NCBI GenBank assembly: GCA_020051075.1
Contig: JAGVJP010000106.1
Coordinates: forward strand, 1 to 33,912
From: Parachlamydiales bacterium
GTDB lineage: Bacteria > Chlamydiota > Chlamydiia > Chlamydiales > Parachlamydiaceae
DNA: 33,912 bases
Direction of reading: 5' to 3'
Under the pieces are notes generated by a model, which was not told where the DNA came from, did no database searches, and saw only the letters and a program-made list of their open reading frames with translations. Below, piece by piece: positions 1-30,925 of the stretch. How positions within the stretch are numbered: the stretch's first letter is position 1; the number at the start of each line of letters is the position of its first letter. A program made the position numbers and the translations under genes.

Positions 1-335
1 CCCCAAGGAATTAGGGAAACAGCTGCTTCCCTAATGCCATCTGGGTAGCTGTCGGCAAATTGGCGCATGAATTTCAAATTTCTATGCGAAAATGCAGTGA
101 TATTCGGGAATGAAGAGGCCAGATCTTTTGCAATCCTTTCAATTGTCTTCGATCCCCAAGATTCCGACAGGGCTTTTTCAGACAGCATTTTGCCGATCCT
201 CCAATAGAGCTCTATGAGTTCTTTATTAATGGATATGGCCGCGCGCAGCTGCGAGTCTTGAATGTCTTTTTTGATGTGTTCTATAAACTTGTCGTAACTA
301 TGCGGATCAACGATTTCATTTTTCTTTGCGTTCAT
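1..335 (-). CDS. DUF1016/YhcG-type nuclease-family protein, N-terminal part (cut by window edge)
   Basis: Reading leftward from the ATG at 335, the frame stays open to the window edge (111 codons). The protein begins MNAKKNEIVDP. Further in it has ELYWRIGKML, a GWGSK-like stretch (ESWGSKTIERIAKDL) and FSHRNLKFMRQFADSYPD. Together these are the signature I know from the DUF1016 N-terminal domain of YhcG-like proteins. Family members usually carry a C-terminal PD-(D/E)XK nuclease domain, which would lie outside the window. A good ribosome site (AGGGG, 6 nt spacing) precedes the ATG. The gene starts 9 bp after the integrase stop, so the two are probably co-transcribed. YhcG-type genes are common on mobile elements and in defence islands; their exact role is poorly defined. 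The family call is fairly secure, the function is not. Confidence 0.75.
   Translation of the reverse strand, partial: MNAKKNEIVDPHSYDKFIEHIKKDIQDSQLRAAISINKELIELYWRIGKMLSEKALSESWGSKTIERIAKDLASSFPNITAFSHRNLKFMRQFADSYPDGIREAAVSLIPW
12..33. repeat. Near-palindromic 20-21 bp repeat, copy 1 (inside the DUF1016 gene)
   Basis: Positions 13-32 read AGGGAAACAGCTGCTTCCCT. The reverse complement is identical to positions 7892-7911, and identity extends one more base to give 21 bp. The site is an inverted repeat: 11-34 pair across the centre with a single mismatched pair. Here it also encodes REAAVSL of the DUF1016 protein. The second copy is intergenic. Confidence 0.6.
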
Positions 336-344
336 TAAAAACCC

Positions 345-1328
345 CTAAGATATTAAATTTACTTTTTTGCTCGCGTTATCTGCGCGCGAAGACTTGTCAT
401 AAGCGAAAACCATCTCCGATGTAGAATGTCCGGTTACACGCATGATATCACTGTCTTGAAATCCTTGCTGTTTAAGGTATGTGACAGCGGAAGCCCTTAG
501 TACGTGAGGAGATACCTTAAATGGAATACCTGCAGCTTTCCCAGCTTTTGCAAATGTGACGGCCAGCTGATTGATCATGACGGCTTTGCCCGATCTGGTC
601 ACAAACACACTGCCTGTTCTTTCCCCGATGTATTCCCTAAGTTTCTTCATAATTGTCTCTGGATATGTGATGACCGTTTCTTTCAGAAGCCTTCTCATTT
701 TCGACTGAAAAAATGTAATTTCACAGCGCTCCCAATCGATTTGGCTAGTTTGCAAGGATAGAACCTCGTTAACCCTTTTTCCTCCTTGCAGGATGATTTT
801 CCCAATCAAGCAGTCTCGAGGGTTAATTTTCTCTAATTCCTTGAAGAAAGAAATCCACTGCGCCTGAGTCATTGCATGGGTTTTAACCTTCTCGTATACG
901 TTGAAGAAGGTTTTTGCATGGCCTTCTTTATTCGGGATGGCCTTTTTTATGACTCCTTCAAGACGACGGCTCAAAAATCCGGTAAATGAAATATAACAGG
1001 CTGCACGAGCTTGGCGAGTGGTCTCAGCCCAATCCTGAAAAAGCTTGATGCGGTCGATGACGCTTTCATGATTAATCAGAGCAAACTGCTGCAAACTCAT
1101 GAGGGGATTAAGCCATCCGAACTCAACCAACTTCTTGATGCCGGATCTATAGCTAAGCTGAGTTTTAGGGCTCAAAGTCGGCAGCCAATAGGAAATTGCC
1201 TCTTCTACAGAAATCTCATCCAATTTCTTCCATACCAAGTTAGCTTTGAAAGACGCTGCTTGTTCATACGTTTCCAAATGAGAGGGGATAGGAATCTCCA
1301 AAACAGCCGGCATTAAAGTCATTGCCAT
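345..1328 (-). CDS. Tyrosine recombinase/integrase of the chlamydial plasmid pGP8-D/pGP7-D type
   Basis: This 327-residue site-specific recombinase breaks and rejoins DNA through a 3'-phosphotyrosine. The catalytic set is visible: R185 (GGKRVNEVLSL), H275-x-x-R278 (SPHVLRASAV), H301 (VTGHSTSEM) and nucleophile Y310 (VFAYDKSS). The stretches RQARAACYISFT, FVTRSGKAV and AYDKSSRADNASKK match what I remember of the chlamydial plasmid integrases, so it is probably a homologue of pGP8-D (330 aa) or its sister pGP7-D. Unlike some pGP7 proteins as I recall them, all active-site residues are kept. The start at 1328 has an AAGGGAAGAA ribosome site. It overlaps the preceding small gene by 10 bp and is followed 9 bp later by the DUF1016 gene. 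It may resolve plasmid multimers or integrate the element. Comparison with chlamydial sequences is from memory. Confidence 0.92.
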   Translation of the reverse strand: MAMTLMPAVLEIPIPSHLETYEQAASFKANLVWKKLDEISVEEAISYWLPTLSPKTQLSYRSGIKKLVEFGWLNPLMSLQQFALINHESVIDRIKLFQDWAETTRQARAACYISFTGFLSRRLEGVIKKAIPNKEGHAKTFFNVYEKVKTHAMTQAQWISFFKELEKINPRDCLIGKIILQGGKRVNEVLSLQTSQIDWERCEITFFQSKMRRLLKETVITYPETIMKKLREYIGERTGSVFVTRSGKAVMINQLAVTFAKAGKAAGIPFKVSPHVLRASAVTYLKQQGFQDSDIMRVTGHSTSEMVFAYDKSSRADNASKKVNLIS

Positions 1329-1504
1329 TTCTTCCCTTCACAAAGACCCTCAAATAGTTTTTTATGTTCCTCTCTGCACATCACTTCTTGGATCGGAGAA
1401 CTTGTCTCGGTCTTAATGATTGCAAGATCAATTTTTTTCGCAGGCTTTCTTGATTCCGGTATTTTTTCTTGAGACTTTGGGTCTTTGGGTTCCTGTTTGC
1501 TCAC
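1319..1504 (-). CDS. Small basic hypothetical protein upstream of the integrase
   Basis: I do not recognise this protein. From a GTG at 1504, preceded by GAGG at 5 nt spacing, it is 61 residues, rich in Lys, Glu and Pro (SKQEPKDPKSQEKIPES). The open frame extends upstream to a TTG at 1579 (86 residues), but that start has no ribosome site. The stop lies inside the start of the integrase, a 10 bp overlap that suggests translational coupling. No signal peptide, membrane segment or known domain is visible. Its role may lie in control of the integrase, but nothing in the sequence shows that. Confidence 0.45.
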   Translation of the reverse strand: MSKQEPKDPKSQEKIPESRKPAKKIDLAIIKTETSSPIQEVMCREEHKKLFEGLCEGKKWQ

Positions 1505-1622
1505 ATACACCTCGACTTGTTTATAAGCGGCTTTATAAACAATGAAATGTAGCTCAAAAAGTCTTTCGTGGCAACACAAAGTTTTGACGATCTCGTGTCA
1601 TTTACACTAAGGCGTTGTAGCC

Positions 1623-1652
1623 ACTATAAATACTACGACATCTTGAATACAA
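1623..1652 (-). promoter_or_regulatory. Candidate promoter for the small protein-integrase-DUF1016 operon
   Basis: On the minus strand a TTGTAT -35-like box (1647-1652) and TATAGT -10-like box (1623-1628) are separated by 18 bp. They resemble the major sigma70/sigma66 consensus. The site lies back to back with the candidate promoter of the ribbon-helix-helix gene, so a regulator bound here could affect both directions. Confidence 0.35.
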
Positions 1653-1668
1653 GACAACTAAACGCCTA

Positions 1669-1698
1669 TTGACACAAGGCATGCCTATCGTTTATACC
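1669..1698 (+). promoter_or_regulatory. Candidate promoter for the ribbon-helix-helix gene
   Basis: A perfect TTGACA box at 1669-1674 is followed after 18 bp by TATACC at 1693-1698, about 35 bp before the ATG at 1734. The -35 box is strong and the -10 box is a partial match. Confidence 0.45.
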
Positions 1699-1733
1699 TC
1701 TTATCAATAAACCAGCAAAAGGCTTGGGTAAAT

Positions 1734-1979
1734 ATGAACGAACAAGATCAAACGTTAATACAGCAAGACGTCAAAGATATTGGCAGTCAAATAGCCAAAA
1801 CAATTCAAAACAGGAACAAAAAAAAGTTCAAAGCCACAATCTATTTGACTGAAGAGGCGGAGAAGGCATTTACGGAGCTTTATATTCATCGCCTCAGAAA
1901 GGACAGGAAGATCGATCGTTCGATGATCGCCTGCGATGCTCTTCAGGCTCTTTATGAAAAAGAATGCAAAATTAATTGA
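1734..1979 (+). CDS. Small ribbon-helix-helix-like DNA-binding protein
   Basis: This 81-residue protein has a polar N-terminal helix, a basic linker (NRNKKKFKA) and then a short strand and two helices (TIYLTEEAEKAFTELY, then DRSMIACDALQAL). That pattern fits ribbon-helix-helix proteins such as ParG, CopG or antitoxin-like repressors, where the strand TIYLT would pair with a second subunit and sit in the DNA groove. It is transcribed divergently from the integrase operon across a 154 bp gap with candidate promoters both ways. I infer it is an autoregulator or a plasmid partition/copy-control factor. No ParA partner is nearby. The ribosome site is weak (GGGTAAAT). The fold call is moderate and based on pattern only. 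Confidence 0.6.
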   Translation: MNEQDQTLIQQDVKDIGSQIAKTIQNRNKKKFKATIYLTEEAEKAFTELYIHRLRKDRKIDRSMIACDALQALYEKECKIN

Positions 1980-2096
1980 GTAAATTTTATATAGAATCGG
2001 GGAACGGTGAATTTTTCTGCTATTTTATGCATCGACAAGGATAATAATCCTAGATATAGCGGACAAAAGCGAACGTCTCGTAAAAAAGAACAATTG

Positions 2097-3971
2097 TCAC
2101 GCAGACATAGGTAATTTGAAACGAATCAACCTTAATCCGTTCAAAATTACCAGTATAGCTACTCCTGAGTCAGCGCCTATTGCAAATTCAAGACCCGCCA
2201 ACCCAAAGACAGCTAAGGAAAGAAAGACAAACTTCACTCCCAAGGAGACCACAATGTTTTGCTTGATTACTTGGAGTGTCTTTTTTCCAAGGCTTATTGA
2301 ATAAGGGACATTCAGCAGATTATTACTCATCAGTGCAATGTCAGCCGTTTCAATAGCAATATCCGAACTCCCCGCTCCCATAGCGATCCCTACGTTCGCC
2401 GTAGCCAAAGCCGGAGCATCGTTGACTCCATCGCCTACCATGACGACAGATTTATATTTTTTCTTGAGTTCATCAATTTTTTCTACCTTTTCATGGGGAA
2501 GAAGAGATGCGAAAAATATTTGAACCCCTGTTTTATTAGCTATGTATTCAGCTGAATAACGGTTGTCTCCTGTAAGCATTACCGCTTCAACATTCATTCT
2601 ACGCAAAAGATTTACGGCTTCTTTCGCTTCATTTCTGATCGTATCAGCAATGCCAAGCGCTCCTATTATCTGATTCTCTTCTCGAATGATAACAACGGTC
2701 TTCCCATGTTTTTCTAATCCTTCAACAGTATTTAAAATTGCAGGGGGTATAGTAATCCCCATGAATTTAATATTCCCAATCGCATGTTCTGCTCCATTGC
2801 AGTTAATACAAATGGCCTTTCCACCCTTCCCTGAGACATTTTCATATTTTTCCATCACATGATGAGTGATTTTTTTTTCTTGGATATAATTTAAGATGCT
2901 TTTGGATAGTGGGTGAGAGGAAAATTTCTCAATGCCTGCTGCATCAGCAAGAACTTCTTCTTCTGTATGATTACCAAGTGCTATCACGTCTGTGACATAT
3001 GGCTCGCCTAACGTTAAAGTTCTTGTTTTATCAAATGCGACGATTTTCGCTTTTCCAATTTCCTCAAGATGGACCCCTCCTTTGATTAGAACCCCACGCT
3101 TGGCTGCTCCCCCAATTGCTGAAGCTATTGAAATAGGCGTGGAGATGACTAAGGCACAAGGGCAAGAAATGACTAAGAGAACCAGGGATTTGTACAGCCA
3201 CTCATTGAATATTCCTCCAAAAAACAAAGCGGGCACAGTAGCAAAAAAGAAAGCTGCAACTACAACAGTAGGAGTGTAATATTTTGCAAATTTATCGATA
3301 AATTCTTGAGTAGGAGCGCGCGAGCGCTGTGCTGCCTCAATGAGCTGGACGATTTTATTAAAAGTCGAATCTTTGTTTTCTTTCGTAACCTCGACTTCTA
3401 AAAACCCATTTTGATTGATTGTCCCAGAGAAAACTGTGTCGTTTTCATTTTTGTCCTTTGGGATGGATTCTCCTGTAATCATCGATTCATCAACTGATGA
3501 CATTCCTTTAATTACTTTCCCATCTAATGGAATCAGATCGCCTGGTTTAATCAAGATTATATCATTTTTTCTAACAGATTCAACCGGAACTATTTCCCCG
3601 TTTTTCAAAATAGCAGTTTTAGGAGCTCGTTTAATCAACGTTTCTACTGCTTTTTTAGACTTTTCTATCCCATAATTTTCAAAGAATTCAGCCAATGAAA
3701 AGAAGAAAACAACAGCCGCAGCCTCTCCTATCTGATTAATATACATAGCCCCTAAGGCTGCAATGACAACTAGGAAATTAATATTCAGAAATTTTTGTTT
3801 TACAACTCCAAGAAACGCAGAAATTAAAACGAAGTATCCTCCAGAAATTATTGAAATGTAATAAAAAACAGAAGATTCTTTACTATGCTCAAAAAATCCA
3901 AATGCAAATGCCAATAATACAGATATCCCAGAAACTAAAGTTAGAAATTTTTTCCAGAAATCAGATCTCAT
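2097..3971 (-). CDS. Zn/Cd/Pb-type P1B-ATPase with altered phosphorylation motif
   Basis: This 624-residue protein is a heavy-metal P-type ATPase of the ZntA/CadA branch, exporting divalent soft metals across the inner membrane. It has TGES (actuator domain), the membrane CPC motif (ISCPCALVIS), SHP (SSHPLSKS), [10 protein letters not shown], and the late membrane Lys and Asp (LGVKFVF; GADSGVAIL) that mark the Zn/Cd/Pb group. It lacks any N-terminal metal-binding domain, which many relatives have. The oddity is the phosphorylation loop: D314-KTRTLT, with AGA (3021-3023) where nearly all P-type ATPases have Gly. One base change from GGA would give this. It may reduce or abolish activity. The gene lies alone between the terminase and the ribbon-helix-helix gene, apart from the large metal operons. 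It has its own candidate promoter. The family assignment is secure; activity is uncertain. Confidence 0.93.
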   Translation of the reverse strand: MRSDFWKKFLTLVSGISVLLAFAFGFFEHSKESSVFYYISIISGGYFVLISAFLGVVKQKFLNINFLVVIAALGAMYINQIGEAAAVVFFFSLAEFFENYGIEKSKKAVETLIKRAPKTAILKNGEIVPVESVRKNDIILIKPGDLIPLDGKVIKGMSSVDESMITGESIPKDKNENDTVFSGTINQNGFLEVEVTKENKDSTFNKIVQLIEAAQRSRAPTQEFIDKFAKYYTPTVVVAAFFFATVPALFFGGIFNEWLYKSLVLLVISCPCALVISTPISIASAIGGAAKRGVLIKGGVHLEEIGKAKIVAFDKTRTLTLGEPYVTDVIALGNHTEEEVLADAAGIEKFSSHPLSKSILNYIQEKKITHHVMEKYENVSGKGGKAICINCNGAEHAIGNIKFMGITIPPAILNTVEGLEKHGKTVVIIREENQIIGALGIADTIRNEAKEAVNLLRRMNVEAVMLTGDNRYSAEYIANKTGVQIFFASLLPHEKVEKIDELKKKYKSVVMVGDGVNDAPALATANVGIAMGAGSSDIAIETADIALMSNNLLNVPYSISLGKKTLQVIKQNIVVSLGVKFVFLSLAVFGLAGLEFAIGADSGVAILVILNGLRLIRFKLPMSA

Positions 3972-4002
3972 AGTTGCTCATTTTTTGAAATGTCTTATAG
4001 AC

Positions 4003-4031
4003 CTGATATCAAGCGGTGAATAGGACGTCAA
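4003..4031 (-). promoter_or_regulatory. Candidate promoter of the P1B-ATPase gene
   Basis: On the minus strand TTGACG (4026-4031) and TATCAG (4003-4008) are spaced by 17 bp, about 30 bp upstream of the ATG at 3971. This would let the ATPase be transcribed separately from the terminase genes that end at 4075. Confidence 0.35.
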
Positions 4032-4074
4032 GTCAATAAAGCAATATGGTAATAAGCAACTTTAATGAATTGGT

Positions 4075-5424
4075 TCAGAGCGTCATAAGAGCATTTAAGT
4101 CATACGTTGCATCGGTGAGCATCAAGAAAGCACCGCTTAAAGCATCGACAATGTCATCGTGACCGCCTTCAGGGAAATTCTCTAATTCTCGGAGAAAATC
4201 TTCATTCCAAGATGCTTGTAGGATTTTGATATTTCCAGCTTCTGCCTGGGATGAAACGGGGAGGGCCCGCGTTACTTTGTCCTGAGTGGCTTTAAAGGTC
4301 TTCACATTATACCCTTGCAGCATTCTTACTAAATAGTCTGCCTCGCTTACCCCCGCCTGGCCAGGATCTTGTTCGATGCCGATCCTGGTCGAAATACCAT
4401 CCTGGCTTGCTGTATTTTTGATGGCGCTTTGAACCCCCAAAGGGCTCTGCTGAATCCTCACCATATCAGTGATGTATAAGATGTTATTTTTATCTTTTTC
4501 AAGACGCAACCCGACTGTATAATCTGGGTTGTTGCTTTCAGTCTTTTTCGTTGCAGCCCGATCCCAGTAGCGCACAGCCTTTAAGCCGCTTTTAGGAATG
4601 GCCTTAACAACTTCAAAGAAGTTTCTCTGGAAGAACATGCCCGCTGTGGGCCTGACGTTCCAGTTTCCCATGAGCAGCTGCTCCCGTTCAAAACGAGGCA
4701 GCGCTTTAAGATTGGCCAAGTATCCCGGATCTTTATCAAGCAGGATTTTATTGTCATGCACGGTTGATGCCACAAAGGAAACGCTCTTTGGGAGGCAATT
4801 TGGGTCTTTTTCTATCAATTCTTCAAGACTTGACCCCCAAATTGTCTGATCATTCTGAATGAAGAACCAGCGTGTTTTCCCGCTGCGCGAGGGGATCGGG
4901 TATCCGGATTTTTCATCAATCCACCAAGCGATGAATTGCCGGACCCAGGAGTCTGTATCCGGATTGGTGGTAGCTCTAATGTAAGGCTTCACTCCGCACG
5001 TGGATCTATTCCGCGAGAGCATATAGACGAATTGCTGCCACGAAAAATGAGTCAGCTCGTCAAAGCCGAGAAGAGGGATCTGAGATCCCTGCCAATCGAA
5101 GCGCGTCTTATCATGCTCAAGATGAGCGAATTTTACTTTGCCGTTGCCCTGGAAATCCCATTCAAGGGTTGATTCTTTAGGAGTGCCATTGGCGTGAACA
5201 AAAAGCTCGCAGCTTGTATCCCATAAGCCGCCTGGATTTCGTACCTGGGTGCTGTTTCTTCGGAATATCACGGCGGAGAAGCCTGGAACGTTTCTATGGC
5301 GCAGGCATTCCATTAAAAGGGCCCACGTTTTTCCGCCGCCGGCAGCGCCTCCGTAGATCACAATATCCGCAGAAGCATTCAAAAATTGGTATTGAGGGCC
5401 TTCCTGAGGCATGATTTTAGGCAT
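4075..5424 (-). CDS. Phage terminase large subunit
   Basis: This 449-residue protein is the DNA-packaging motor of a tailed phage. The N-terminal ATPase has a Walker A loop with K32 (GGAAGGGKTW) and a Walker B with D122 and E123 (LLGFDELTHF), followed by a TTNP coupling-type motif. The C-terminal half fits the RNase H-like headful nuclease, with acidic residues in RYWDRAATK, GIEQDPGQAG and GGHDDIVDAL. Length is normal for the family and the reading frame is intact. The start at 5424 has GAGG at 6 nt spacing and overlaps the small subunit by 8 bp. Downstream, where a portal gene is expected in most tailed phages, there is instead a P1B-ATPase in its own unit. So the head genes are missing or elsewhere. 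Confidence 0.93.
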   Translation of the reverse strand: MPKIMPQEGPQYQFLNASADIVIYGGAAGGGKTWALLMECLRHRNVPGFSAVIFRRNSTQVRNPGGLWDTSCELFVHANGTPKESTLEWDFQGNGKVKFAHLEHDKTRFDWQGSQIPLLGFDELTHFSWQQFVYMLSRNRSTCGVKPYIRATTNPDTDSWVRQFIAWWIDEKSGYPIPSRSGKTRWFFIQNDQTIWGSSLEELIEKDPNCLPKSVSFVASTVHDNKILLDKDPGYLANLKALPRFEREQLLMGNWNVRPTAGMFFQRNFFEVVKAIPKSGLKAVRYWDRAATKKTESNNPDYTVGLRLEKDKNNILYITDMVRIQQSPLGVQSAIKNTASQDGISTRIGIEQDPGQAGVSEADYLVRMLQGYNVKTFKATQDKVTRALPVSSQAEAGNIKILQASWNEDFLRELENFPEGGHDDIVDALSGAFLMLTDATYDLNALMTL

Positions 5425-5893
5425 TTGGATCCTCCACTTTTTCTTCTATGCAATCGCCCCTTCCGTTATCCGGAATATAAATTTGGACAGGGTCTTCTCC
5501 TTTAACGATCGTTTCCGTGACAATGGTTTCTCTTTGACCGAGCCATATCTTGCCAAGCCAAATAGCCATGGTTGCATTGCGTTCGGCTTGCTGAAATTGG
5601 TAGCGCCGGAGGGAGAGTTTATGAAGTCCATTGCACCTTTTTCTTAACTCCGCAAAACCCATACCGAAAGCCTCCCTCAACCTTCGATCCAAAGTGTCAA
5701 CGCTGACCCTGAAAGCGCCCGCAATTTCTTCGGCGGTGGCTTGTAATTCCGTCCAATAGAGCACTTGATCGAGATTGATCTCCTTTTCCGGGACTACTCC
5801 TTTCCATTCAGAAGGAGGAGCTTTCGGATCGACAGGCGGCTTGACTGTTTTTTTAGGCCGGCCGTTCGGCCTTCCAGTAGGCTTCCTAGGCAT
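5417..5893 (-). CDS. Phage terminase small subunit-like protein
   Basis: The protein is about 158 residues from the ATG at 5893, which has a GGTGAAG ribosome site; an ATG four codons upstream (5905) lacks one. It begins with a basic, Pro-rich tail (PRKPTGRPNGRPKK), then a helix-turn-helix-like segment (ATAEEIAGAFRVSVDTLDRRL), then a basic helical region. This is the usual plan of terminase small subunits, which bind the packaging site and recruit the large subunit. It is squeezed between the methyltransferase (8 bp overlap from this start) and the large subunit (8 bp overlap), as expected for a packaging operon. Identity rests on the helix-turn-helix pattern and position. Confidence 0.78.
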   Translation of the reverse strand: MPRKPTGRPNGRPKKTVKPPVDPKAPPSEWKGVVPEKEINLDQVLYWTELQATAEEIAGAFRVSVDTLDRRLREAFGMGFAELRKRCNGLHKLSLRRYQFQQAERNATMAIWLGKIWLGQRETIVTETIVKGEDPVQIYIPDNGRGDCIEEKVEDPNA

Positions 5894-7211
5894 GTTCTTC
5901 ACCATTCAACTTGATGTCGCATGGCTCGTTCCTCTGGAGCTTGTACTTCCTATAACGATCGACAATCACATCGCAATACTTTGGATCCAACTCGCATCCG
6001 AAGCATCTGCGGTTCAACTGCTCCGCTGCCATAAGAGTTGTGCCGGACCCCAGAAAGAAATCGAAGATGAGATCATCTTTCTTGGAGCTGTTATTAATGA
6101 GATAACCAATCAAAGGGATCGGCTTCATTGTCGGATGTTCGGCGTTCCTTTGGGGCCTGTCGAATTTCAGAAGAGTGGTTTGCTTCCGGTTGTTATACCA
6201 GCGATGTTTTTCTCCTTCCTTCCATCCGTAAAGCACAGGATCGTGATCGCTATACTCTTTCCCTCCGAATAGAACCGGCTCATGCTGCCATTGATAGTCC
6301 TGCCGTCCAAGAACCAGGGAATTCTTGAGCCAAATAAGGCATTGCGTCATTTTTAAGTTTGCTTCGCGGAAAAACCGGCGGAATCTTTCTCCTTCGGAGT
6401 CGGCGTGGAATACATAGATGCCCGCTCCTTCTTTCATGAAGACGAAAGCATTCACATAGAAATCACGTAAGAGGGATTCAAATTCTTCATTCGAAAGATC
6501 GTCATTTTTGATGGTAAGCTTCTCTTTCGTCCCGCCTTTATAAGCCACATTATAAGGGGGATCTGTGATGACTAGGTCTATTAATTCAGAGCCAAGGACT
6601 TTCTCAATGTCGTTATAAATTGTGGCGGATCCACAAATCAGCCGGTGCCTGCCCAAATCATAAATATCGCCCGGCTTGGTCTTCGGCTCTTCAGGCAATT
6701 CTTCTTCATAACCGTCATCAACCGCTTCAATTTTTTCAGGATCCTTCACCTGCAGCTCGTCTTCTGTAAATCCCCAATTGAACAGATCCTTTACCTCCCA
6801 TTCATTGGCTAACCGCTCCCAATCCCATTCTCCTGAATTCTTATTGCTGCGGATGAGATATTCTTCAGCCTCCCGTGTAGTAAGCTGACGGTTTGGAACT
6901 CGGACTTCGATTTCTTCTTTTCCCCGCCCAAGGGCCTTCATGGCTTTGATCCTCATGTGGCCGGCCAAGATCGTATTATCCAGATTGATAACGATGGTCT
7001 CCACATAGTTAAAGCTCTTTAATGACTGCTTTAGCTTCTCCATCTGATCTTTTGTGATCTTGCGTGGGTTTTTCTCATGTTCTTTAAAGTCTTTGATCCG
7101 CCTGATTTCGGTGTGCCACACCAACTCCTCTAAAGTGATTTCGGCTTCTTGCGCCGGGACCTCGATTTCATCTGTCTGGATCTCTGCATCCTTGGTTTTC
7201 CTCTTTGCCAT
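5886..7211 (-). CDS. ParB-like domain fused to a beta-class DNA (adenine) methyltransferase
   Basis: This 441-residue protein has a ParB/Srx-type N-terminal domain (about residues 30-125; KNPRKITKDQ, TILAGHMRIKA) joined to an N6-adenine/N4-cytosine methyltransferase. The catalytic motif IV is DPPYN at D217, and the S-adenosylmethionine motif I (DFFLGSGTTLMAAE) lies near residues 382-395. That order defines the beta class, and DPPY favours adenine as target. Such ParB-methylase fusions are widespread in phages and mobile elements and usually lack a cognate restriction enzyme; none is next to this gene. It could protect the element from host restriction or act in packaging. It starts the packaging block and overlaps the terminase small subunit gene. 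Target site cannot be read from sequence. Confidence 0.93.
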   Translation of the reverse strand: MAKRKTKDAEIQTDEIEVPAQEAEITLEELVWHTEIRRIKDFKEHEKNPRKITKDQMEKLKQSLKSFNYVETIVINLDNTILAGHMRIKAMKALGRGKEEIEVRVPNRQLTTREAEEYLIRSNKNSGEWDWERLANEWEVKDLFNWGFTEDELQVKDPEKIEAVDDGYEEELPEEPKTKPGDIYDLGRHRLICGSATIYNDIEKVLGSELIDLVITDPPYNVAYKGGTKEKLTIKNDDLSNEEFESLLRDFYVNAFVFMKEGAGIYVFHADSEGERFRRFFREANLKMTQCLIWLKNSLVLGRQDYQWQHEPVLFGGKEYSDHDPVLYGWKEGEKHRWYNNRKQTTLLKFDRPQRNAEHPTMKPIPLIGYLINNSSKKDDLIFDFFLGSGTTLMAAEQLNRRCFGCELDPKYCDVIVDRYRKYKLQRNEPCDIKLNGEEHA

Positions 7212-7273
7212 CTTTCATCTCTCTGATTTAATTTCTTCTTTGTACAAGACCTGTAGGCCGATTTTTTTTCTAA

Positions 7274-7288
7274 TTACCAAATTGGTAA
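7274..7288. promoter_or_regulatory. 15 bp perfect palindrome, candidate operator
   Basis: TTACCAA-A-TTGGTAA lies 63-77 bp upstream of the methyltransferase start, in the 168 bp gap before the DUF1064 gene. A second similar half-site (CGGTAGTTAAG) follows at about 7304-7314. Odd-length palindromes like this are typical of repressor sites. No repressor is identified. Confidence 0.35.
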
Positions 7289-7379
7289 AAAGCGATAGAA
7301 AATCGGTAGTTAAGATTTAAGAGAGTAATTGAGAAAGGGAAGTAGGAAGGGTAATTGGGTAGAAGCCTAACGGCTTAAT

Positions 7380-7721
7380 TTAAACTTTGCTGACAATTTC
7401 AATGGTGACCGGATATAAATCCTCAACCATCTTTCGCTTTGCCTGGCTTAAAGCGGTATCTTTTCCTTTGGTGTCGACGAAACTTATTTCGCCATTCGCA
7501 TAAAAAACCTGAAAGTCACAAACATAGCGCACTTTTCCCGGAAGATCGAACGGTATCTGCCTAAGAAAAAAAACAACTTCCCCGGCTTTTTGAAGAATTT
7601 GGAGCTTATCGTAATACCTTCGCTCCAATTTTGAGGGAAACTTTTTACCGTCCCTCTCGCAGGGAATCGCACCGAATTTATGCTTTGGCTTCGCCCTAGA
7701 GTTAAAAAATTTAATATTCAT
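7380..7721 (-). CDS. DUF1064 phage protein, PD-(D/E)XK nuclease-like
   Basis: This 113-residue protein matches the DUF1064 family of phage proteins as I remember it: KFGAIPCERDGKKFPSKLE near the N-terminus, then RQIPFDL, VCDFQVFY and DTKGKDT. The acidic residues in SKLERRYY, CDFQV and VDTKG with the following Lys form an E...D...DxK pattern, as in the PD-(D/E)XK nuclease fold. It may be a small endonuclease or resolvase acting on phage DNA. It is transcribed leftward, 168 bp before the methyltransferase, and is the first gene of the packaging block. The ribosome site is poor: the nearest GGAG is about 15 nt from the ATG. The family call is good and the activity is inferred. Confidence 0.75.
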   Translation of the reverse strand: MNIKFFNSRAKPKHKFGAIPCERDGKKFPSKLERRYYDKLQILQKAGEVVFFLRQIPFDLPGKVRYVCDFQVFYANGEISFVDTKGKDTALSQAKRKMVEDLYPVTIEIVSKV

Positions 7722-8049: not shown

Positions 8050-8268
8050 ATGCCTTTAATTCAAGGAAGCAGCGAAGAAAGCCTACATGCGAATATAAAG
8101 AAACTGATAGGGGAAGGGTATAAAAGGAAGCAAGCGGTCGCAATTGCTTATAGCATAGCTGAGAAGGCAAAGAGCAAAGATGACCAAATTGAGAAAAAAC
8201 CTTTTCAGTACAAAAATAGTTGCTTAGAGACTGCTAGGAAAGAAATCCAACAGTTTCCTTATCTATAG
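8050..8268 (+). CDS. Small phage-type hypothetical protein
   Basis: This 72-residue protein starts MPLIQGSSEESLHANIKKL and continues with EGYKRKQAVAIAYSIA. I recognise this plan (MPLI...N+K.....G....QAVAIAYS) from many short phage and prophage proteins of unknown role. An ideal ribosome site (AGGAGG, 6 nt spacing) precedes the ATG. The C-terminal part (IEKKPFQYKNSCLETARKE) is less familiar. It is on the plus strand, unlike the neighbouring phage genes, and is followed by a 246 bp gap before the copper operon. Confidence 0.7.
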   Translation: MPLIQGSSEESLHANIKKLIGEGYKRKQAVAIAYSIAEKAKSKDDQIEKKPFQYKNSCLETARKEIQQFPYL

Positions 8269-8514
8269 CAAATGTTTTTCGATCACTTCATTTATTCCAA
8301 GATGTAGATATTCGATGCCTCAAACGTTATCTTCAGTGCAGCCGATGAAGCCTTGAAGAGACTGCCGATATTTTGCTTCTCATTCCCATTAAAATTCCCA
8401 ACCAGTTTTTGTCAGGCCTTTCTACTGTTTTGTATTGCAAAGGTAAAGTGCATATGTTAACAGTAAACGCTTAGGGTCTCGCTTTGCGCATGCCAAAAAG
8501 AACGGAGTGTTTTG

Positions 8515-9924
8515 ATGAAGAGCTTTTACCGCATACTGGCGTCGTTTATAGCGTTATGCTTTGTTTCTGGCTGCACAAAAATACAAAGATCCGATGATCT
8601 GTACGTTTCGTCAGCCATTGAACGGCGACTTAATAAAACAGTTCAATGGGATAAAGGATGCCCGAAAGATGAACAAGTCCAATGCAGAATCCATAGTCTT
8701 CTTCAACAAGAATTGACCGTCGATGCAGCTGTTCAGGTTGCTTTGCTCAATAACCCTCACACCCAAGCAATATTCGAAGAGATTGGAGTTTCACAAGCTG
8801 ATTTGGTTGAAGCAGGGCTATTTTCTAACCCAATCTTTGATATTGTCATTCGCTATCCTGATAGAAAAAAACTTGTACCAGACATTGAATATTCAATCGT
8901 TGCAAGCTTTATAGATCTTTTTCTTATTCCTCTTCGTGTAAAAGTTGCCAAAGCAGAGCTTGAGCAAACAACGCTGAGAGTAACAAATGAAGTTTTAGAT
9001 TTGGCATTTGAGGTTGAACAAACATACTATGAATTGCAAGCCGCTCAGCAAGAACTTAAGTTTACTCGATCCATTGTAGAACTTACTAGTATTCATAACG
9101 AAATTGCTTCCAGACAAAGAACTATTGATAATGTTAATAGTCTTGATTTTCAACAAATTCAATCTAGATTCCTAGAGGCTAAATTAGAAATCGCAAGAAT
9201 TCAGAACGAAATCATCAGATTAAAAGAAAAACTGAACAAATTGCTTGGATTCCGTGGAGATATTCAGTGGACTATTTCAAATGACCTACCAGAAATTGAT
9301 TATCAGGGGTTGCCAATTGACCGTCTCGAATGTGTGGCTTTCAGAGAACGGCTTGATTTACAAGTATCTCGTTTTGAAGTACTTCGTTTAAGTCGCAAAC
9401 TAGGAATTAAGCAGTGGTGGGTTTACACAAATGGACGCATTGGAATAGGTGGTGAGAGAGATTCTGATGGACTTAACACTCTAGGTCCTGCTTTTTCAGG
9501 TGAAATCCCTATTTTTAACTATGGGCAAGCGGCACGCCTTCGTCTCCATGCAGAATTAAGACAAGCTCAAGATGAGCTAGCTACATTAGAAATTCGCATT
9601 CTCTCTGAAGTAAGAGAAGCTCACAAGCTTCTCATGAATAACCTAGAAATTATTAACGACTATCGAGCTCAGATCATACCCTTACAAAGTAAGATCTTAG
9701 AATCTTCAGAAGAACTCTATAACGTCATGGGGCTTGGAATTGATCGTCTTTTAGAAAATAAACGGCAAGAACTTCAAGCTTATAGCAATTATATCTTGTC
9801 CTTACGCAATTACTGGATGGCAAGGGTCCAACTTGATAGAGCTTTGGGAGGAAAACTTTACAAGATTTTCTCCTATGAAAATGAACCAATTCCCTGGTAT
9901 TGCAAAGAAGGAGTTGTAGAATGA
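8515..9924 (+). CDS. TolC-family outer-membrane efflux lipoprotein
   Basis: The protein is 469 residues from the ATG at 8515 (GGAG upstream; a TTG just before it is an unlikely start). The N-terminus is a lipoprotein signal with lipobox FVSG-C20, as in CusC-type channels. The body shows two long alpha-helical repeats rich in Gln, Glu, Leu and Arg (LDLAFEVEQTYYELQAAQQE; LEIRILSEVREAHKLL), the hallmark of the periplasmic tunnel of TolC trimers. It begins the rightward copper operon and overlaps the oxidase gene by 4 bp (ATGA). No inner-membrane pump lies in this operon, so it probably works with the CusBA pump encoded on the other strand, or with an unidentified partner. A second TolC-type gene exists at 21528-22814. 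Confidence 0.85.
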   Translation: MKSFYRILASFIALCFVSGCTKIQRSDDLYVSSAIERRLNKTVQWDKGCPKDEQVQCRIHSLLQQELTVDAAVQVALLNNPHTQAIFEEIGVSQADLVEAGLFSNPIFDIVIRYPDRKKLVPDIEYSIVASFIDLFLIPLRVKVAKAELEQTTLRVTNEVLDLAFEVEQTYYELQAAQQELKFTRSIVELTSIHNEIASRQRTIDNVNSLDFQQIQSRFLEAKLEIARIQNEIIRLKEKLNKLLGFRGDIQWTISNDLPEIDYQGLPIDRLECVAFRERLDLQVSRFEVLRLSRKLGIKQWWVYTNGRIGIGGERDSDGLNTLGPAFSGEIPIFNYGQAARLRLHAELRQAQDELATLEIRILSEVREAHKLLMNNLEIINDYRAQIIPLQSKILESSEELYNVMGLGIDRLLENKRQELQAYSNYILSLRNYWMARVQLDRALGGKLYKIFSYENEPIPWYCKEGVVE

Positions 9925-11564
9925 AAATCTACACGACCCTTATAGCTTTTCTTATCAATTTTTCTCTATATGGCCAGAACGACCTTGGTATGCATTCTCC
10001 TAACTCCAAGACGGATAGCTCTAATCAATCTTCTATGAAATCCATGCAAGGGATGAACCATTCGCAGATGCCAATGAATGGAATGAAGGATAATAAACAA
10101 GAAACTCCCAAAAAAGACACTAAAAGTAAAGATCACTTCGTTTCAAAAGACAAGAGCCCCCCTTCTGTTATTACACCAAATGTAGGCTCTTTGCCTTGGA
10201 CTATGGATGGGGATGTGAAAGTCTTTCATTTGATAGCTGAGCCTATTCGGAGAGAATTTGCTCCAGGTTTTTGGGTTAATTGTTGGGGTTATAATGGCTC
10301 TAGTCCTGGACCCACTATTGAGGCAATTGAAGGAGAGCGAGTAAGAATTTTTGTAACCAATAAGTTGAATGAGCCCACTTCCGTTCACTGGCATGGAATT
10401 ATTCTACCTAATGGAATGGATGGAGTAGCAGGGCTCAACCAACAAGCTATTCAACCTGGTCAAACATTCAAATATGAGTTTACTCTCAAACAAAATGGCA
10501 CCTTCATGTATCACCCGCATTCTGATGAAATGACTCAGGTAGCTTTGGGCATGATGGGGTTTTTCATTATACACCCGAAAGCAGGGGATGATCCTCCTAT
10601 TGATCGTGATTTTGCTATTTTCCTGCATGAGTGGCGCATTCCTATGGGAGCGAAAACCCCAATTCCTTTTGAAATGCTCGATTTTAACATTTTTACCTTC
10701 AATAGCGTCCTTTACCCAAAGATCGAATCATTGGTCGTTAAAACAGGGGAACGCGTACGCATTCGACTAGCGAATGTGATGATGAATAGCCATCCCATTC
10801 ACTTACATGGACATGAGTTTTTAGTCACAAGAAAAGGAGCACAGAGGTTGCCTCGCTCAGCTCAATACACAGAAGTCACGATCAGCGTTGCTCCGGGAGA
10901 GACAAGAGATATTGAGCTCATTGCGGATAACCCAGGAGATTGGGCTTTTCATTGTCATAAATCGCATCATGTTATGAACCAAATGCAACATGACCTGCCT
11001 AATTTAACAGGGATTAACAAAGAGGGGATTGAAGAAAGAATCAAGCAGTTTTTTCCCAATTTTATGGGTTTAATGAATATCAATGGCATGGGAGATATGT
11101 TTGAGATGTACGGAACCAATAAGATGATGGATATGGGGATAAAGATGAAATATCCACCCAATATGTCTCCCATTGGCAACCCTGGGCCTTTCGGTGTGAT
11201 TGAAATGGGGGGAATGTTCACTGTCTTTAAAGTTAGAAATAATATCAATAGCTATGTAGATCCGGGTTGGTATCAGCATCCTTTAGGAACTGTAGCAGAG
11301 CCGGTGAGTATAGATGCAGTGCCACAAGATATTCGGGTCATGGAACAGATGACTGTGCAGAATCATGAGCCTAAAACAAGCGACATAAGCTGGCTGAGCC
11401 AAGAAGAAGAAAAAAGACAGCCCCAAGAAGATTCAACTAACTGGATGCAAAGCAAACCCGAAGACAGCATGGGAGGTGGGCATACGCATAGTATGGGAGA
11501 GATGAAAGACATGTCCCCAAAAATCATGGATGACGCATCAAATATGAACCATATGGAGCATTAA
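9921..11564 (+). CDS. Exported multicopper oxidase with long Met/His-rich tail
   Basis: From the ATG at 9921 (AAGGAG upstream) the protein has 547 residues and a signal peptide (MKIYTTLIAFLINFSLYG). A Met-rich stretch follows (MKSMQGMNHSQMPMNGMK). All four copper-ligand motifs are present: HWHG (about residue 156), HPHSDE (about 198), HPIHLHGHEF (about 291) and HCHKSHHVMNQM (about 343-354) with the type 1 Cys, His and axial Met. HWHG and HCH are only about 190 residues apart, which suggests two cupredoxin domains rather than three. After them come about 190 residues rich in Met, Gly and His, ending GGGHTHSMGE and NMNHMEH, likely extra Cu sites. It probably oxidises toxic Cu+ to Cu2+ in the periplasm. 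I recall similar oxidases in copper islands of other intracellular bacteria. Confidence 0.93.
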   Translation: MKIYTTLIAFLINFSLYGQNDLGMHSPNSKTDSSNQSSMKSMQGMNHSQMPMNGMKDNKQETPKKDTKSKDHFVSKDKSPPSVITPNVGSLPWTMDGDVKVFHLIAEPIRREFAPGFWVNCWGYNGSSPGPTIEAIEGERVRIFVTNKLNEPTSVHWHGIILPNGMDGVAGLNQQAIQPGQTFKYEFTLKQNGTFMYHPHSDEMTQVALGMMGFFIIHPKAGDDPPIDRDFAIFLHEWRIPMGAKTPIPFEMLDFNIFTFNSVLYPKIESLVVKTGERVRIRLANVMMNSHPIHLHGHEFLVTRKGAQRLPRSAQYTEVTISVAPGETRDIELIADNPGDWAFHCHKSHHVMNQMQHDLPNLTGINKEGIEERIKQFFPNFMGLMNINGMGDMFEMYGTNKMMDMGIKMKYPPNMSPIGNPGPFGVIEMGGMFTVFKVRNNINSYVDPGWYQHPLGTVAEPVSIDAVPQDIRVMEQMTVQNHEPKTSDISWLSQEEEKRQPQEDSTNWMQSKPEDSMGGGHTHSMGEMKDMSPKIMDDASNMNHMEH

Positions 11565-11565
11565 A

Positions 11566-12153
11566 ATGAACAAGCAACTAATTTTGTATTTATTATGCTT
11601 CTTATGCTTTGCAGTTCTTTTTGGTCATGAAAGGCATCAAAATATGGAAGAAGATAAAACTAAACAAGAAACTGTCAATCCCTCATCAGAACCTCAACCC
11701 GCTGTTAAAAACTCGGGAGGAAGGCCTTTGAGTTGGACACAATGGATTGGTAGTTTCCATTTTATCTTCCTACACTTTCCCATCGCTTTAATCGCAATGA
11801 CAGGTATTTCTGAACTTTTATTTGCATGGTGCCAAAGACCTATTTTTGATTACGCTTCTCGATTTATGATCATTGCTGCAGCTGTTCTAGCAATCCCCAC
11901 AGCCGTACTGGGGCTCATCTATAGTTATACATCCTCTTATAGCGGTCTTCTAGCTGACTTCATCTGGTGGCATATGTGGGCAGGAATTTCAACCACCATC
12001 TTTGCAATCTTTGTAGTTTTTCTTAGAGAGCGCTGGGGCATAAGCAAGCTTTACTATGCATGTCTTTTTCTCCTATTCTTGTTAGTAAATATTACTGGTT
12101 ACTTGGGGGGCGGAATGACATTTGGACCGTATCATATGTACCCGCCTAGCTAA
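11566..12153 (+). CDS. DUF2231-like integral membrane protein
   Basis: This 195-residue protein has an N-terminal hydrophobic segment (MNKQLILYLLCFLCFAVLF), a charged and Pro-rich linker, and then about four membrane helices. Conserved-looking polar residues sit at the helix ends: FHFIFLHFPIALI, WWHMWAGI and the C-terminal GGGMTFGPYHMYP. The HFPIAL motif and helix layout recall DUF2231 membrane proteins, often found near copper oxidases and cytochromes. The His residues could bind heme or copper, but this is inference. The start lies one base after the oxidase stop and its stop overlaps the region just ahead of the next gene, so it is clearly part of the operon. Confidence 0.65.
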   Translation: MNKQLILYLLCFLCFAVLFGHERHQNMEEDKTKQETVNPSSEPQPAVKNSGGRPLSWTQWIGSFHFIFLHFPIALIAMTGISELLFAWCQRPIFDYASRFMIIAAAVLAIPTAVLGLIYSYTSSYSGLLADFIWWHMWAGISTTIFAIFVVFLRERWGISKLYYACLFLLFLLVNITGYLGGGMTFGPYHMYPPS

Positions 12154-12173
12154 TGGCCTATAAGGAGAATGTT

Positions 12174-13502
12174 ATGTTGGGAAGGCAAATCAGCTATATC
12201 GGCTTGTACATGGCAGCTGTGCTAATGCCTCTCTTTTTAGTCATTTTATTTCAGCCAGTTTCTGATCATCCATTCCTTTACGAAGTAGGGGTCAACTTTG
12301 CTCTTATTGGGTTGATGATTTTTACTTTACAAGTGCTTTTGGTAGGTCGTTTCAAGTGGATCTCTCAAGTTTTTGGCCTTGATACTCTTATTCGCTTTCA
12401 TAGATACATGGCCATTTTTGCTACCTTATTAGTGATTTCTCATCCTCTTCTTTTGTTTTTATCCAGCAAAAATGGGTCTCTCATTTTCGGTCTAAACATT
12501 CCCTGGCATATTTGGTTGGGACGAACAGCCCTAATAATATTAATTACCAACATCTTATTGAGCCTTTATCAATCCAAATTGAAAATCAAATTTGAGATAT
12601 GGCGTATTTTTCATAATCTATTTGGAATTTGTCTTCTGATTTTCGCTTTTGTACACAGTTGGTTTGCTGGTAGCTCCATACAAGAAGTCTTTGCTCTAAA
12701 AGGACTTTGGATTTTACTTTTATTTGGGTTTTTGACTCTCTTTATTTATCACAGATTTTTAAGGCCTTGGTTACTCAGTCGGCATCCTTATATTGTCATC
12801 GATGTCAGGCAAGAGATACAGGATGTTTGGACAATTAAGTTTGCTCCTCCTCAAGGATTCCCCATTTTTCACTATTTGCCGGGGCAGTTTCACTTTGTGA
12901 CATTTCATAGAGGGAGGGATCTGCCCGAAGAAGAACATCATTGGACAATATCTTCTTCACCTACAGAACAAGGGTTTCTTAGCTCAACAATTAAGACATT
13001 GGGAGACTTTACAGCCACAATCGGTCAAACAAAGCCAGGCGATACCGCCACTGTTCATGGCGCTTTTGGTCGCTTCTCTTATCTTTTCTATCCAAAAGAG
13101 AAAGATTTTGTATTCATTGCAGCAGGTATTGGGATTACGCCTTTTATGAGTATGCTCAAGTCTATGCAAGACTCCCAGTCTGCCTATCCTGTTCTTCTTT
13201 TTTATGCTAATAAAAACGAAGAAGGGATTCTCTTTCGTAAAGAGTTAGAAGGAATAGAGAAAAAGGACTATCCAAAACTCAACATTGTCCACATTCTGAG
13301 CGAACCATCCACTTATTGGAAAGGCGAAAAAGGGCATCTAGACCAACAAAAGATTGAAAGATTTTGCCTCCAAAACCTCAAAGACAAATCTTTCTATATT
13401 TGTGGACCACAAGGGTTGATAGATACAACTTACAAAAGTTTAATCAAAATGAAAATTAAACATAAAAACATTCATACAGAGCTCTTTTCTTTTTTAGATT
13501 AA
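12174..13502 (+). CDS. Ferric-reductase-like flavocytochrome (heme membrane domain plus FAD/NAD(P) domain)
   Basis: From the ATG at 12174, which has AAGGAG at 6 nt spacing, the protein is 442 residues; an earlier ATG at 12153 has no ribosome site. The N-terminal half has about six membrane helices, with two His pairs spaced alike (FHRYMAIFATLLVISH and FHNLFGICLLIFAFVH), the heme-binding pattern of ferric reductases and NADPH oxidases. The C-terminal half is a ferredoxin-reductase fold: HHWTISSSP for FAD, FIAAGIGITPF and YICGPQG for NAD(P). It should move electrons from cytoplasmic NAD(P)H across the membrane. In this operon it may supply or balance electrons for the oxidase or reduce metal ions. 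The substrate is not shown. Confidence 0.88.
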   Translation: MLGRQISYIGLYMAAVLMPLFLVILFQPVSDHPFLYEVGVNFALIGLMIFTLQVLLVGRFKWISQVFGLDTLIRFHRYMAIFATLLVISHPLLLFLSSKNGSLIFGLNIPWHIWLGRTALIILITNILLSLYQSKLKIKFEIWRIFHNLFGICLLIFAFVHSWFAGSSIQEVFALKGLWILLLFGFLTLFIYHRFLRPWLLSRHPYIVIDVRQEIQDVWTIKFAPPQGFPIFHYLPGQFHFVTFHRGRDLPEEEHHWTISSSPTEQGFLSSTIKTLGDFTATIGQTKPGDTATVHGAFGRFSYLFYPKEKDFVFIAAGIGITPFMSMLKSMQDSQSAYPVLLFYANKNEEGILFRKELEGIEKKDYPKLNIVHILSEPSTYWKGEKGHLDQQKIERFCLQNLKDKSFYICGPQGLIDTTYKSLIKMKIKHKNIHTELFSFLD

Positions 13503-13808: not shown

Positions 13809-14039
13809 CTAGTCGTTACACTTGCAATCGCATCCACACTGACATTGATCTCCACAAGCACAAGAACGGTCGGCGCATTTGCACCCTGCTTTCGAAAAGC
13901 ACCCGCAATTAGATTCAACAGTACAATTGCATTTCTCACAATGACAACTATTTTTTGTTGGCACCTTTGCAGGAGCTGCAAAAAGCACGGCTCCTGATAA
14001 AATCGCAACTCCAAGAATAAGGGAGGAAAATAACTTCAT
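13809..14039 (-). CDS. Exported Cys-rich, metallothionein-like protein
   Basis: This 76-residue protein starts with a clear signal peptide (MKLFSSLILGVAILSGAVLF, then AAPA). The mature part of about 55 residues holds 15 cysteines, mostly as CxC and CxxC (SCHCEKCNC, GCKCADRSCACG, CQCGCDCKC). That density is typical of metallothioneins, which chelate Cu+, Zn2+ or Cd2+ through thiolate clusters. Known bacterial metallothioneins are cytosolic; this one should be exported, which is unusual. It is the last gene of the leftward metal operon, 12 bp after CopA, with AGGAG at 7 nt spacing. I infer that it buffers Cu+ in the periplasm. It could also be a Cys-rich envelope protein, as chlamydiae use disulfide-linked envelope proteins. 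I do not recognise a named family. Confidence 0.8.
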   Translation of the reverse strand: MKLFSSLILGVAILSGAVLFAAPAKVPTKNSCHCEKCNCTVESNCGCFSKAGCKCADRSCACGDQCQCGCDCKCND

Positions 14040-14051
14040 AATAGACTCCTG

Positions 14052-16238: not shown

Positions 16239-16492
16239 TGACAGCCCTTTTGCTTATCGTTATTTTTATTTTCTTGCTTGTTCTCATGCTCAGATTTCTC
16301 ATGCTTCCCATGGCGGCTGTGATGGAATAGGTGCATCAAAGGACAAGAAAGAAAAATCAGCAGAGGTAAAATTGTCCAAAGATGTGGCCCATGATAGATA
16401 ATAAGATAAATACCGACTCCTATTAATAATATATAAAGAAAGTATATTGATTTGAAATTAAACTTCGATTTATTGTTTTTGTCGTCAATCAT
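16235..16492 (-). CDS. DUF2933 small membrane protein
   Basis: From the ATG at 16492 ([16 protein letters not shown] just upstream) the protein is 85 residues. A frame extension to a TTG at 16525 overlaps the previous gene and is less likely. Two closely spaced hydrophobic segments are followed by [20 protein letters not shown], the Cys-Pro-Leu-Met-His motif I associate with DUF2933. The C-terminal tail is rich in His, Lys and Glu and ends QKGCH. DUF2933 genes usually sit beside copper pumps; here it overlaps CopA by 4 bp. A role in metal delivery or binding is plausible but not shown. Confidence 0.8.
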
Positions 16493-16505
16493 TAATACCT
16501 GCCAT

Positions 16506-16847: not shown

Positions 16848-16860
16848 TTTTCTCCTCACG

Positions 16861-17232: not shown

Positions 17233-17248
17233 TTTTTCCCTCAAAATA

Positions 17249-27182: not shown

Positions 27183-27294
27183 TTATTACCCATAACCCTG
27201 CTATCCTATAGAGGCTCCCTTTCCGCAAAATATCTTTATATTTATTTTTTTTCCATTATATTCACTTATTTATTGATAAAAGGAAAAAATACAC
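27183..27294. promoter_or_regulatory. Divergent promoter region between the leftward ATPase run and phosphoketolase
   Basis: This 112 bp AT-rich gap separates two head-to-head transcription units. On the minus strand a perfect TATAAT lies at 27255-27260, with only a poor -35 match, giving a leader of about 65-70 nt before the ATG at 27182. TATATT boxes on the plus strand may serve phosphoketolase, whose AAAGGA ribosome site lies about 10 nt before its ATG. No operator-like palindrome is evident. Confidence 0.4.
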
Positions 27295-30897: not shown

Positions 30898-30898
30898 G

Positions 30899-30925
30899 AG
30901 CTAAATCCTTTAGCTTGCAATTTTT
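30899..30925 (+). terminator. Possible terminator after acetate kinase
   Basis: AGCTAAA (30899-30905) and TTTAGCT (30909-30915) form a 7 bp stem with a 3 nt loop, followed after 5 nt by TTTTT. The stem is AT-rich and the T run is offset, so it may act only as a partial stop before the transporter gene. Confidence 0.35.

Follow-up and report, generated by a model that had tools for sequence, protein, structure and literature searches.

A chlamydial plasmid-type integrase beside tailed-phage packaging genes in a probable phage-plasmid arm from amoeba-associated chlamydiae

The window, which is the whole 33,912-nucleotide stretch of DNA analyzed here, contains an intact integrase, large and small terminase subunits (TerL and TerS), a ParB-methylase, and a DUF1064 protein between positions 345 and 7721, as the original prediction of an integrase near tailed-phage packaging genes had described. 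The integrase (345-1328, reverse strand) is a tyrosine recombinase (PF00589, E=1.6e-19) that its phylogeny places in the chlamydial plasmid integrase (pgp7/8) clade, and motif inspection found a complete catalytic set of R (GGKRVNE), HxxR (HVLR), GH, and a C-terminal Y (Y310). TerL (4075-5424, reverse strand; PF03237, E=1.3e-29; PF17289, E=4e-18; PHROG_979, E=6.6e-164) is intact and possesses the ATPase and RNaseH-like nuclease domains of a tailed-phage large terminase, with undamaged motifs in both the Walker A region (GAAGGGKT) and the acidic positions of the nuclease domain (YWDRA, IEQDP, and DDIVDA). Because the family match of the gene at 5417-5905 (reverse strand) was weak (PHROG_309, E=0.006), we identified its product as the probable TerS from its position, its overlap with TerL, and its conservation. 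The cassette is completed by a ParB-type N terminus fused to an N6/N4 DNA methylase (5886-7211, reverse strand; PF01555, PHROG_498, and PHROG_620) and by the DUF1064 protein, which resembles phage endonucleases and resolvases (7380-7721, reverse strand; PF06356; PHROG_190, "Holliday junction resolvase").

The closest named relative of these genes is plasmid 1 of Criblamydia sequanensis CRIB-18 (pCRIB; NZ_LK031773). The integrase is 91% identical to that of pCRIB, compared with 58% for those of Waddlia pWc and Simkania pSn, and the terminase cassette is arranged in identical order with 88 to 94% identity overall (TerL, 93%; TerS, 94% to the pCRIB frame; ParB-methylase, 92%; DUF1064, 88%). For the integrase and cassette, dN/dS relative to pCRIB was 0.03 to 0.07 where computable, with dS saturated for TerL, and the sequences indicate that both are under purifying selection. 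Three further genes in this interval were missing from the gene list of the original prediction. A small gene that overlaps the integrase and is kept in the module (1319-1579, reverse strand; 86 amino acids) is 78% identical to pCRIB 20956-21237, and a small divergent gene (1734-1979, forward strand; 81 amino acids) is akin to the gene adjoining parA in pCRIB, with its product 68% identical to pCRIB 21372-21623 and 43% identical to part of pCRIB 61425-61925. The third encodes a heavy-metal P-type ATPase, a cargo gene inserted between the integrase and terminase (2097-3971, reverse strand; PF00122/PF00702), in a slot occupied by AbiEi/AbiEii in pCRIB and in contig C12 of another chlamydial genome, G113.

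The remainder of the window is dominated by cargo. A first set of copper-resistance genes (8512-13502, forward strand; family matches) encodes a TolC-like protein, a multicopper oxidase, a DUF2231 protein, and a ferric-reductase-like protein, the first three of which are syntenic with pCRIB 34980-38794. A second set (13809-22814, reverse strand) encodes a cysteine-rich small protein, a CopA-type ATPase, small proteins, CusA, and CusB-like and TolC-like proteins, and metabolic genes at 22798-32360 encode glycogen phosphorylase, a Ca-type ATPase, phosphoketolase, acetate kinase, and a UhpC-like transporter. The contig starts with a DUF1016 N-terminal fragment cut off at its end (3-335, reverse strand; PF17761) and finishes with the beginning of a conserved phage-plasmid block (32371-33912, reverse strand) that is collinear with, and 77% identical in DNA to, pCRIB 42736-44269. 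In comparison with pCRIB, the right end lies inside this block, and the virion block would be expected beyond both ends. The terminal 36-mer of the right end occurred nowhere else in the assembly, and a check for end overlap indicative of a circular contig was negative. Searches of the window for tRNA and Rfam RNA genes found none, and no convincing attachment site or repeat was detected around the integrase.

The original prediction also held that the integrase is of the pGP8-D type and the host chlamydial, and our analyses bear out both. In our tree, from which Chlamydia trachomatis pGP8-D itself was absent, the integrase fell within a group of 14 (joining branch, 91/87) with chlamydial plasmid integrases from Waddlia, Simkania, Rhabdochlamydia, and Chlamydiifrater; chromosomal recombinases, and those of cyanobacteria or associated with transposons, lay elsewhere in the tree. 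Furthermore, genomes assigned to the same family include one with an 80.7-kb contig whose size and content match R. massiliensis pRm2. We also considered that the contig might be a contaminant from a nonchlamydial host, since contamination of the assembly was 5.7% and one relative, the only match in a contig scan of genomes, lies in a MAG labeled Bacteriovoracaceae; a 16S search of the genome found none, so kinship served to place the host. That MAG contig is probably a result of mis-binning, and contamination is hardly credible given the chlamydial integrase clade, a second related cassette elsewhere in the genome on a separate contig, and a closest named relative that comes from cultured Criblamydia as a complete plasmid.

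The linkage of integrase and terminase is not due to chance, because the order integrase-small-small-(variable gene)-TerL-TerS-methylase-DUF1064 recurs in pCRIB, G113 contig C12, and, without the variable gene, L135, with truncated versions in L132, L133, and G236. pCRIB, a circular record of 89,524 bp from cultured Criblamydia, combines an integrase and terminase cassette of the type in the window with ParA, a primase-helicase, and a full virion module. Its head genes encode a portal (PF06381, E=4e-93), Mu-F (PF04233), a head protease, and a capsid (PF09950, E=3e-72), and its tail genes encode a sheath (PHROG_205, E=3e-107), chaperone, Dit-like protein, spike, tape measure, and baseplate wedge and hub; no holin or lysin gene was recognized. 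Its ParA is 75% identical to that of a Protochlamydia naegleriophila plasmid and about 40% identical to the best others. Contig C12 (96,481 bp, with a 77-bp end overlap) is collinear with pCRIB, including ParA and primase-helicase, and contains both virion structural and packaging genes. Contig C3 of chlamydial genome G105 (80,697 bp), which matches pRm2 (PMC4791399), is a further collinear version with virion genes, ParA, primase-helicase, copper genes, and an integrase 75% identical to that of pCRIB, but it lacks TerL, TerS, the methylase, and DUF1064. These relatives, encoding a contractile-tail virion, agree with the predicted double-stranded DNA tailed phage or relative.

We weighed whether the window might instead represent an ordinary chlamydial plasmid with a stray terminase cassette, phage never having been involved as a unit. 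The window's own genome does carry the cassette alone. However, this explanation is very unlikely and already contradicted by the complete relatives, with three long relatives carrying the collinear virion module and two of these also the cassette. In addition, the integrase lies between TerL and portal on metagenomic contigs, as in the consecutive methylase-TerS-TerL-integrase-portal-MuF genes of L132, and G236 links DUF1064 to the integrase, portal, capsid, and sheath. Scans of viral contigs for integrase and ParA added few loci, and the 40 kb surveyed around a full-length TerL in genome G078 contained no further phage homologue.

A broader set of relatives bears on the origin of the element. 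Uncultured IMG/VR myoviruses of ~44 kb share TerL (66 to 77%), capsid (58 to 78%), collinear virion genes, and DUF1064 with the element, and one of them, G240, is a complete phage of 44,492 bp with a 127-bp end overlap and a phage-type initiator as its replication gene. Because these myoviruses have the phage backbone but lack the chlamydial integrase, ParA, and primase-helicase, the sequences indicate that two lineages, plasmid and phage, merged. The original suggestion of such a merger is thereby upheld, with the virion module beside chlamydial ParA and integrase in some elements and sister phages without plasmid genes. TerLs from integrase-bearing elements formed one clade (support, 100/99). 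Within the phage clade, the integrase has been exchanged at least once.

Packaging genes were the only phage genes of this type detected in the window's own genome. This genome carries two terminase cassettes on separate contigs, with ~85% DNA identity to each other and a dN/dS of 0.009 between the TerL copies, and both contigs end abruptly. Searches of this genome, which is rated 99.9% complete, detected no gene for a capsid, portal, sheath, or ParA/primase-helicase of the pCRIB type, and a DNA search of it using the virion and replicon region of pCRIB returned nothing but small pieces apart from the AbiE region. Because two cassettes are present yet none of these genes was detected, either the assembly of this copy is incomplete or the copy has decayed. 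Decay, in which the loss of virion and replicon genes left an island or plain plasmid with the integrase, terminase, and metal cargo, is a serious possibility that we rate at somewhat below even chances. The empty searches with queries that do match the relatives favor it, as do terminase relics in other chlamydial genomes, such as G113 contig C9 with INT-AbiE-TerL fragments still in order, and pRm2, which represents loss in the opposite direction to the window's genome. Against it, both cassettes are intact and strongly constrained, and the right end stops inside the conserved block at a unique 36-mer as if an adjoining contig were missing. Two constrained, capsid-less cassettes in one genome might also suggest a phage satellite, with integrase, terminase, and cargo packaged by a helper phage-plasmid. 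Such a satellite is improbable, however, as the genes and their arrangement match the full phage-plasmid, satellite-specific genes are lacking, both contigs break off within homologous DNA, and no helper with a portal, capsid, or sheath of this type was detected elsewhere in the genome.

Considering these results, we consider that the window very probably represents one arm, with the packaging genes and cargo, of a phage-plasmid found in chlamydiae associated with amoebae, a claim about lineage of which decay would be a subcase. Gene content, order, and relatedness, like purifying selection, are evident at the sequence level, and pCRIB and its two collinear relatives look like phage-plasmids: virion and packaging genes occur in pCRIB and contig C12, replication and partition genes lie on the same replicon in both and in pRm2, and an extrachromosomal circle is indicated by the circular record of pCRIB and the end overlap of contig C12. 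Compared with the window, pCRIB shares the integrase, cassette order, copper-gene synteny, and the conserved block at 42.7 to 44.3 kb, and differs in its full virion and replicon block, its arsenic genes, and the gene between integrase and TerL; cargo genes common to both are mostly only about 48 to 75% identical.

In the complete relatives, the circle encodes the pgp7/8-type recombinase plus a contractile-tailed virion and is copied by the primase-helicase and segregated by ParA. We infer that TerS and TerL would cut the DNA and pump it through the portal, that the DUF1064 nuclease would resolve branches in the replicated DNA ahead of packaging, and that the ParB-methylase would mark element DNA against restriction. 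The element has gathered copper and metabolic genes in two stretches, one separating integrase from portal and the other separating the terminase from the following conserved block, and this cargo would aid bacterial survival within copper-using amoebae. Packaging of the whole element is doubtful, because cargo of about 48 kb, which roughly doubles the genome, may exceed the head capacity, with the pCRIB backbone (about 41 kb) being close to the 44.5 kb of G240. Transduction is presumed, and it is unlikely, though conceivable, that metal-resistance plasmids of these chlamydiae owe their spread to an active phage with a contractile tail, its replication module swapped for that of the chlamydial plasmid, and that capsid-less cassettes such as this one ride in its particles.

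The well-known chlamydial phages are microviruses, tiny single-stranded DNA viruses. For the question of gene movement among obligate intracellular bacteria, complete phage-plasmids would hand environmental chlamydiae a double-stranded DNA transduction route, would help explain similar plasmids across different families, and might serve as a gene-delivery tool; with the host Criblamydia in culture, the complete element is directly testable. Conjugation via a T4SS was set aside as a transfer route, as PLSDB types pCRIB as nonmobilizable. Phage-like genes had been described on these plasmids before, in papers reporting 7% of pCRIB proteins to be of phage origin (PMC4208316), 20 phage proteins on pRm2 (PMC4791399), and a "phage group" of plasmid genes, along with 29 gene transfers inferred between two plasmid-bearing species (Köstlbacher 2021; PMC7846284), and we found none naming the plasmids a phage.

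Among known systems, chlamydial plasmids with the pgp1/pgp5/pgp7-8 set (Waddlia pWc, Simkania pSn, and Chlamydiifrater) share with the phage-plasmids the integrase clade and a ParA of the chlamydial plasmid type; pSn is typed as conjugative. P1-like phage-plasmids, in accounts that mention chlamydiae in neither case (PMC10879196 and PMC11652158), have phage and plasmid backbones unrelated to those of the chlamydial element. They nevertheless resemble this element in joining virion genes on a single circle with those for plasmid partition and replication, in carrying accessory resistance genes, and in giving rise to derivatives minus one half.

The five genes that the original prediction named were all present and intact in the window on the minus strand: an integrase (345-1328), TerL (4075-5424), TerS (5417-5905), a ParB-methylase (5886-7211), and a DUF1064 protein (7380-7721). 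A heavy-metal P-type ATPase gene (2097-3971) had been left out of that list. Adjoining the terminase cassette, a small protein (8050-8268) matched PHROG_2423, a family of unknown function (E=1e-17). The nearest named relative of the window is pCRIB, the circular 89,524-bp plasmid of Criblamydia sequanensis, which has the same order of integrase and cassette genes and high protein identity to the window (integrase, 91%; TerL, 93%; TerS frame, 94%; methylase, 92%; DUF1064, 88%).

At 64.7-87.0 kb, pCRIB encodes a portal, a Mu-F-like head protein, a head protease, and the major capsid protein, together with a tail sheath, tail chaperone, tape measure, and Dit-like protein. Spike and tail-fibre-like proteins and a baseplate (hub and wedge) are encoded there too. 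This virion region adjoins genes for a ParA, 75% identical to that of a Protochlamydia naegleriophila plasmid (other best matches reach about 40%), and for a fused primase-helicase, which among plasmids is not specifically chlamydial. pCRIB also has an exonuclease-like gene at 47.4 kb. Judged by this gene content, pCRIB is a predicted virus as well as a plasmid.

Metagenomic relatives have the whole virion order in common with these phage-plasmids (58-78% capsid identity) and carry TerL and DUF1064. The related phages, four of which we read in detail, contained no chlamydial integrase, ParA, or primase-helicase. In one, G240 (44,492 bp, its ends overlapping by 127 bp), a phage-type replication initiator stands in place of the plasmid genes. 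In the TerL tree, the integrase-bearing elements formed a single clade (support of 100/99) nested in a wider phage group. These findings support and extend the proposal that plasmid and phage lineages have merged.

As the original prediction had implied, the phage-plasmid integrases grouped with chlamydial plasmid integrases; the closest integrase in an isolated-phage collection was about 24% identical. They did not form one clade, and two joined that of the Simkania plasmid pSn (96/98), which argues for at least one exchange with plasmids within the phage clade. L132, a small metagenomic virus contig, has the order methylase-TerS-TerL-small gene-integrase-portal-MuF, and on the 29.5-kb metagenomic phage contig G236 this cassette again occurs alongside genes for integrase, portal, capsid, and sheath; the integrase is thus placed between the terminase and portal genes. 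The pCRIB integrase and portal lie about 22 kb apart, with mostly cargo in the interval, and the window runs out on the integrase side where the portal would follow. Between the G236 portal and integrase (L177, 642-1850) is a 402-amino-acid ankyrin-repeat protein that could act in a eukaryotic host cell.

The remaining 25 kb of the window consists chiefly of genes for copper efflux and copper oxidation plus a sugar and energy set (phosphoketolase, acetate kinase, glycogen phosphorylase, and a UhpC-like transporter), and its final 1.5 kb is again conserved with a known chlamydial plasmid. The sugar genes (22798-32360), which travel with the copper genes and, except for the transporter, also occur in pCRIB, are possibly an ATP-yielding module on a mobile element. 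Cargo of the window and pCRIB is alike in kind yet mostly only about 48-75% identical, indicating that backbone and cargo histories differ. From coordinates, the conserved phage and plasmid genes of pCRIB occupy about 41 kb, nearly the length of the complete 44.5-kb phage G240, which leaves 48 kb of cargo and unassigned sequence. If head size resembles that of the small relatives, the whole element would either not be packaged or require a larger head; phage-plasmids outgrowing their capsid and turning into plasmids have been suggested (PMC10879196).

The window, which makes up all of contig C84, belongs to the genome G000 (2.94 Mb in 133 contigs; 99.9% completeness, 5.7% contamination), which yielded no capsid, portal-family, or sheath-family match of the phage-plasmid type, and none to ParA/primase-helicase and neighbours, with queries that matched in relatives. 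The absent block corresponds to 44.3-87 kb of pCRIB, exactly the stretch expected between the right and left ends of the window, and reflects either a missing contig or a deletion. Two other G000 contigs share end overlaps of 94-99 bp, and the right-end 36-mer of the window had no partner in the assembly. A second cassette in G000 (contig C95, L016, 2-5222), with TerL cut by the contig end, neighbours AbiEi/AbiEii and another CusCBA set. The two cassettes are about 85% identical in DNA, and their TerL proteins are 97% identical across the shared part. Their dN/dS values (0.009 for the shared TerL part and 0.03-0.05 for the other genes), although rough because dS is near saturation, indicate that both stayed functional through most of their history, which does not itself prove function in the present host.

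Among 234 chlamydial genomes searched, the capsid protein occurred in 2, the portal family in 3, the sheath family in 4, and a TerL match in 10, several being only fragments. One 96,481-bp contig (G113 C12) is collinear with pCRIB, and its ends overlap by 77 bp, as expected of a circle. Another (G105 C3; 80,697 bp), which in size and content matches the R. massiliensis plasmid pRm2 (80,897 bp; PMC4791399), keeps the virion genes as well as those for integrase, ParA, and primase-helicase but lacks the entire cassette of TerL, TerS, methylase, and DUF1064 (L024-L028). The chlamydial contig C73 of G001 (L138-L142) has collinear tail genes, with 72 kb masked as N. A full-length TerL, about 71% identical to that of pCRIB, stands alone in a 143-kb chlamydial contig (G078 C1; L049, 12318-13676); since it branches among the ~44-kb phages, these may also infect chlamydiae. 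TerL fragments at L057 (G113 C9), L055 (G124 C14), L053 and L054 (G170), L051 (G088), L052 (G093), and L056 (G081), some adjoining AbiE or integrase remnants, are probable relics of past integration. A contig in a metagenome-assembled genome labelled Bacteriovoracaceae (L135, 7705-13003) encodes a TerL 95% and an integrase 79-80% identical to those of phage-plasmids, along with copper genes and a GlgC-like gene; it is probably mis-binned, and otherwise the host range is wider.

Bertelli and colleagues (2014) assigned a phage origin to 7% of pCRIB proteins (PMC4208316), the R. massiliensis genome paper credited pRm2 with 20 phage proteins and with 48 ORFs that it has in common with pCRIB (PMC4791399), and Köstlbacher (2021) described a 'phage group' including terminase and put pgp7/8 among viral integrases (PMC7846284). 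We found no description of these plasmids as complete tailed-phage genomes in open-licence PMC full texts; fragments of them are already in IMG/VR as viral contigs. The Chlamydiota elements, phage-plasmids as predicted from their sequences, appear to be a group, built on chlamydial plasmid functions and undescribed as such, of a kind of element that is already known.
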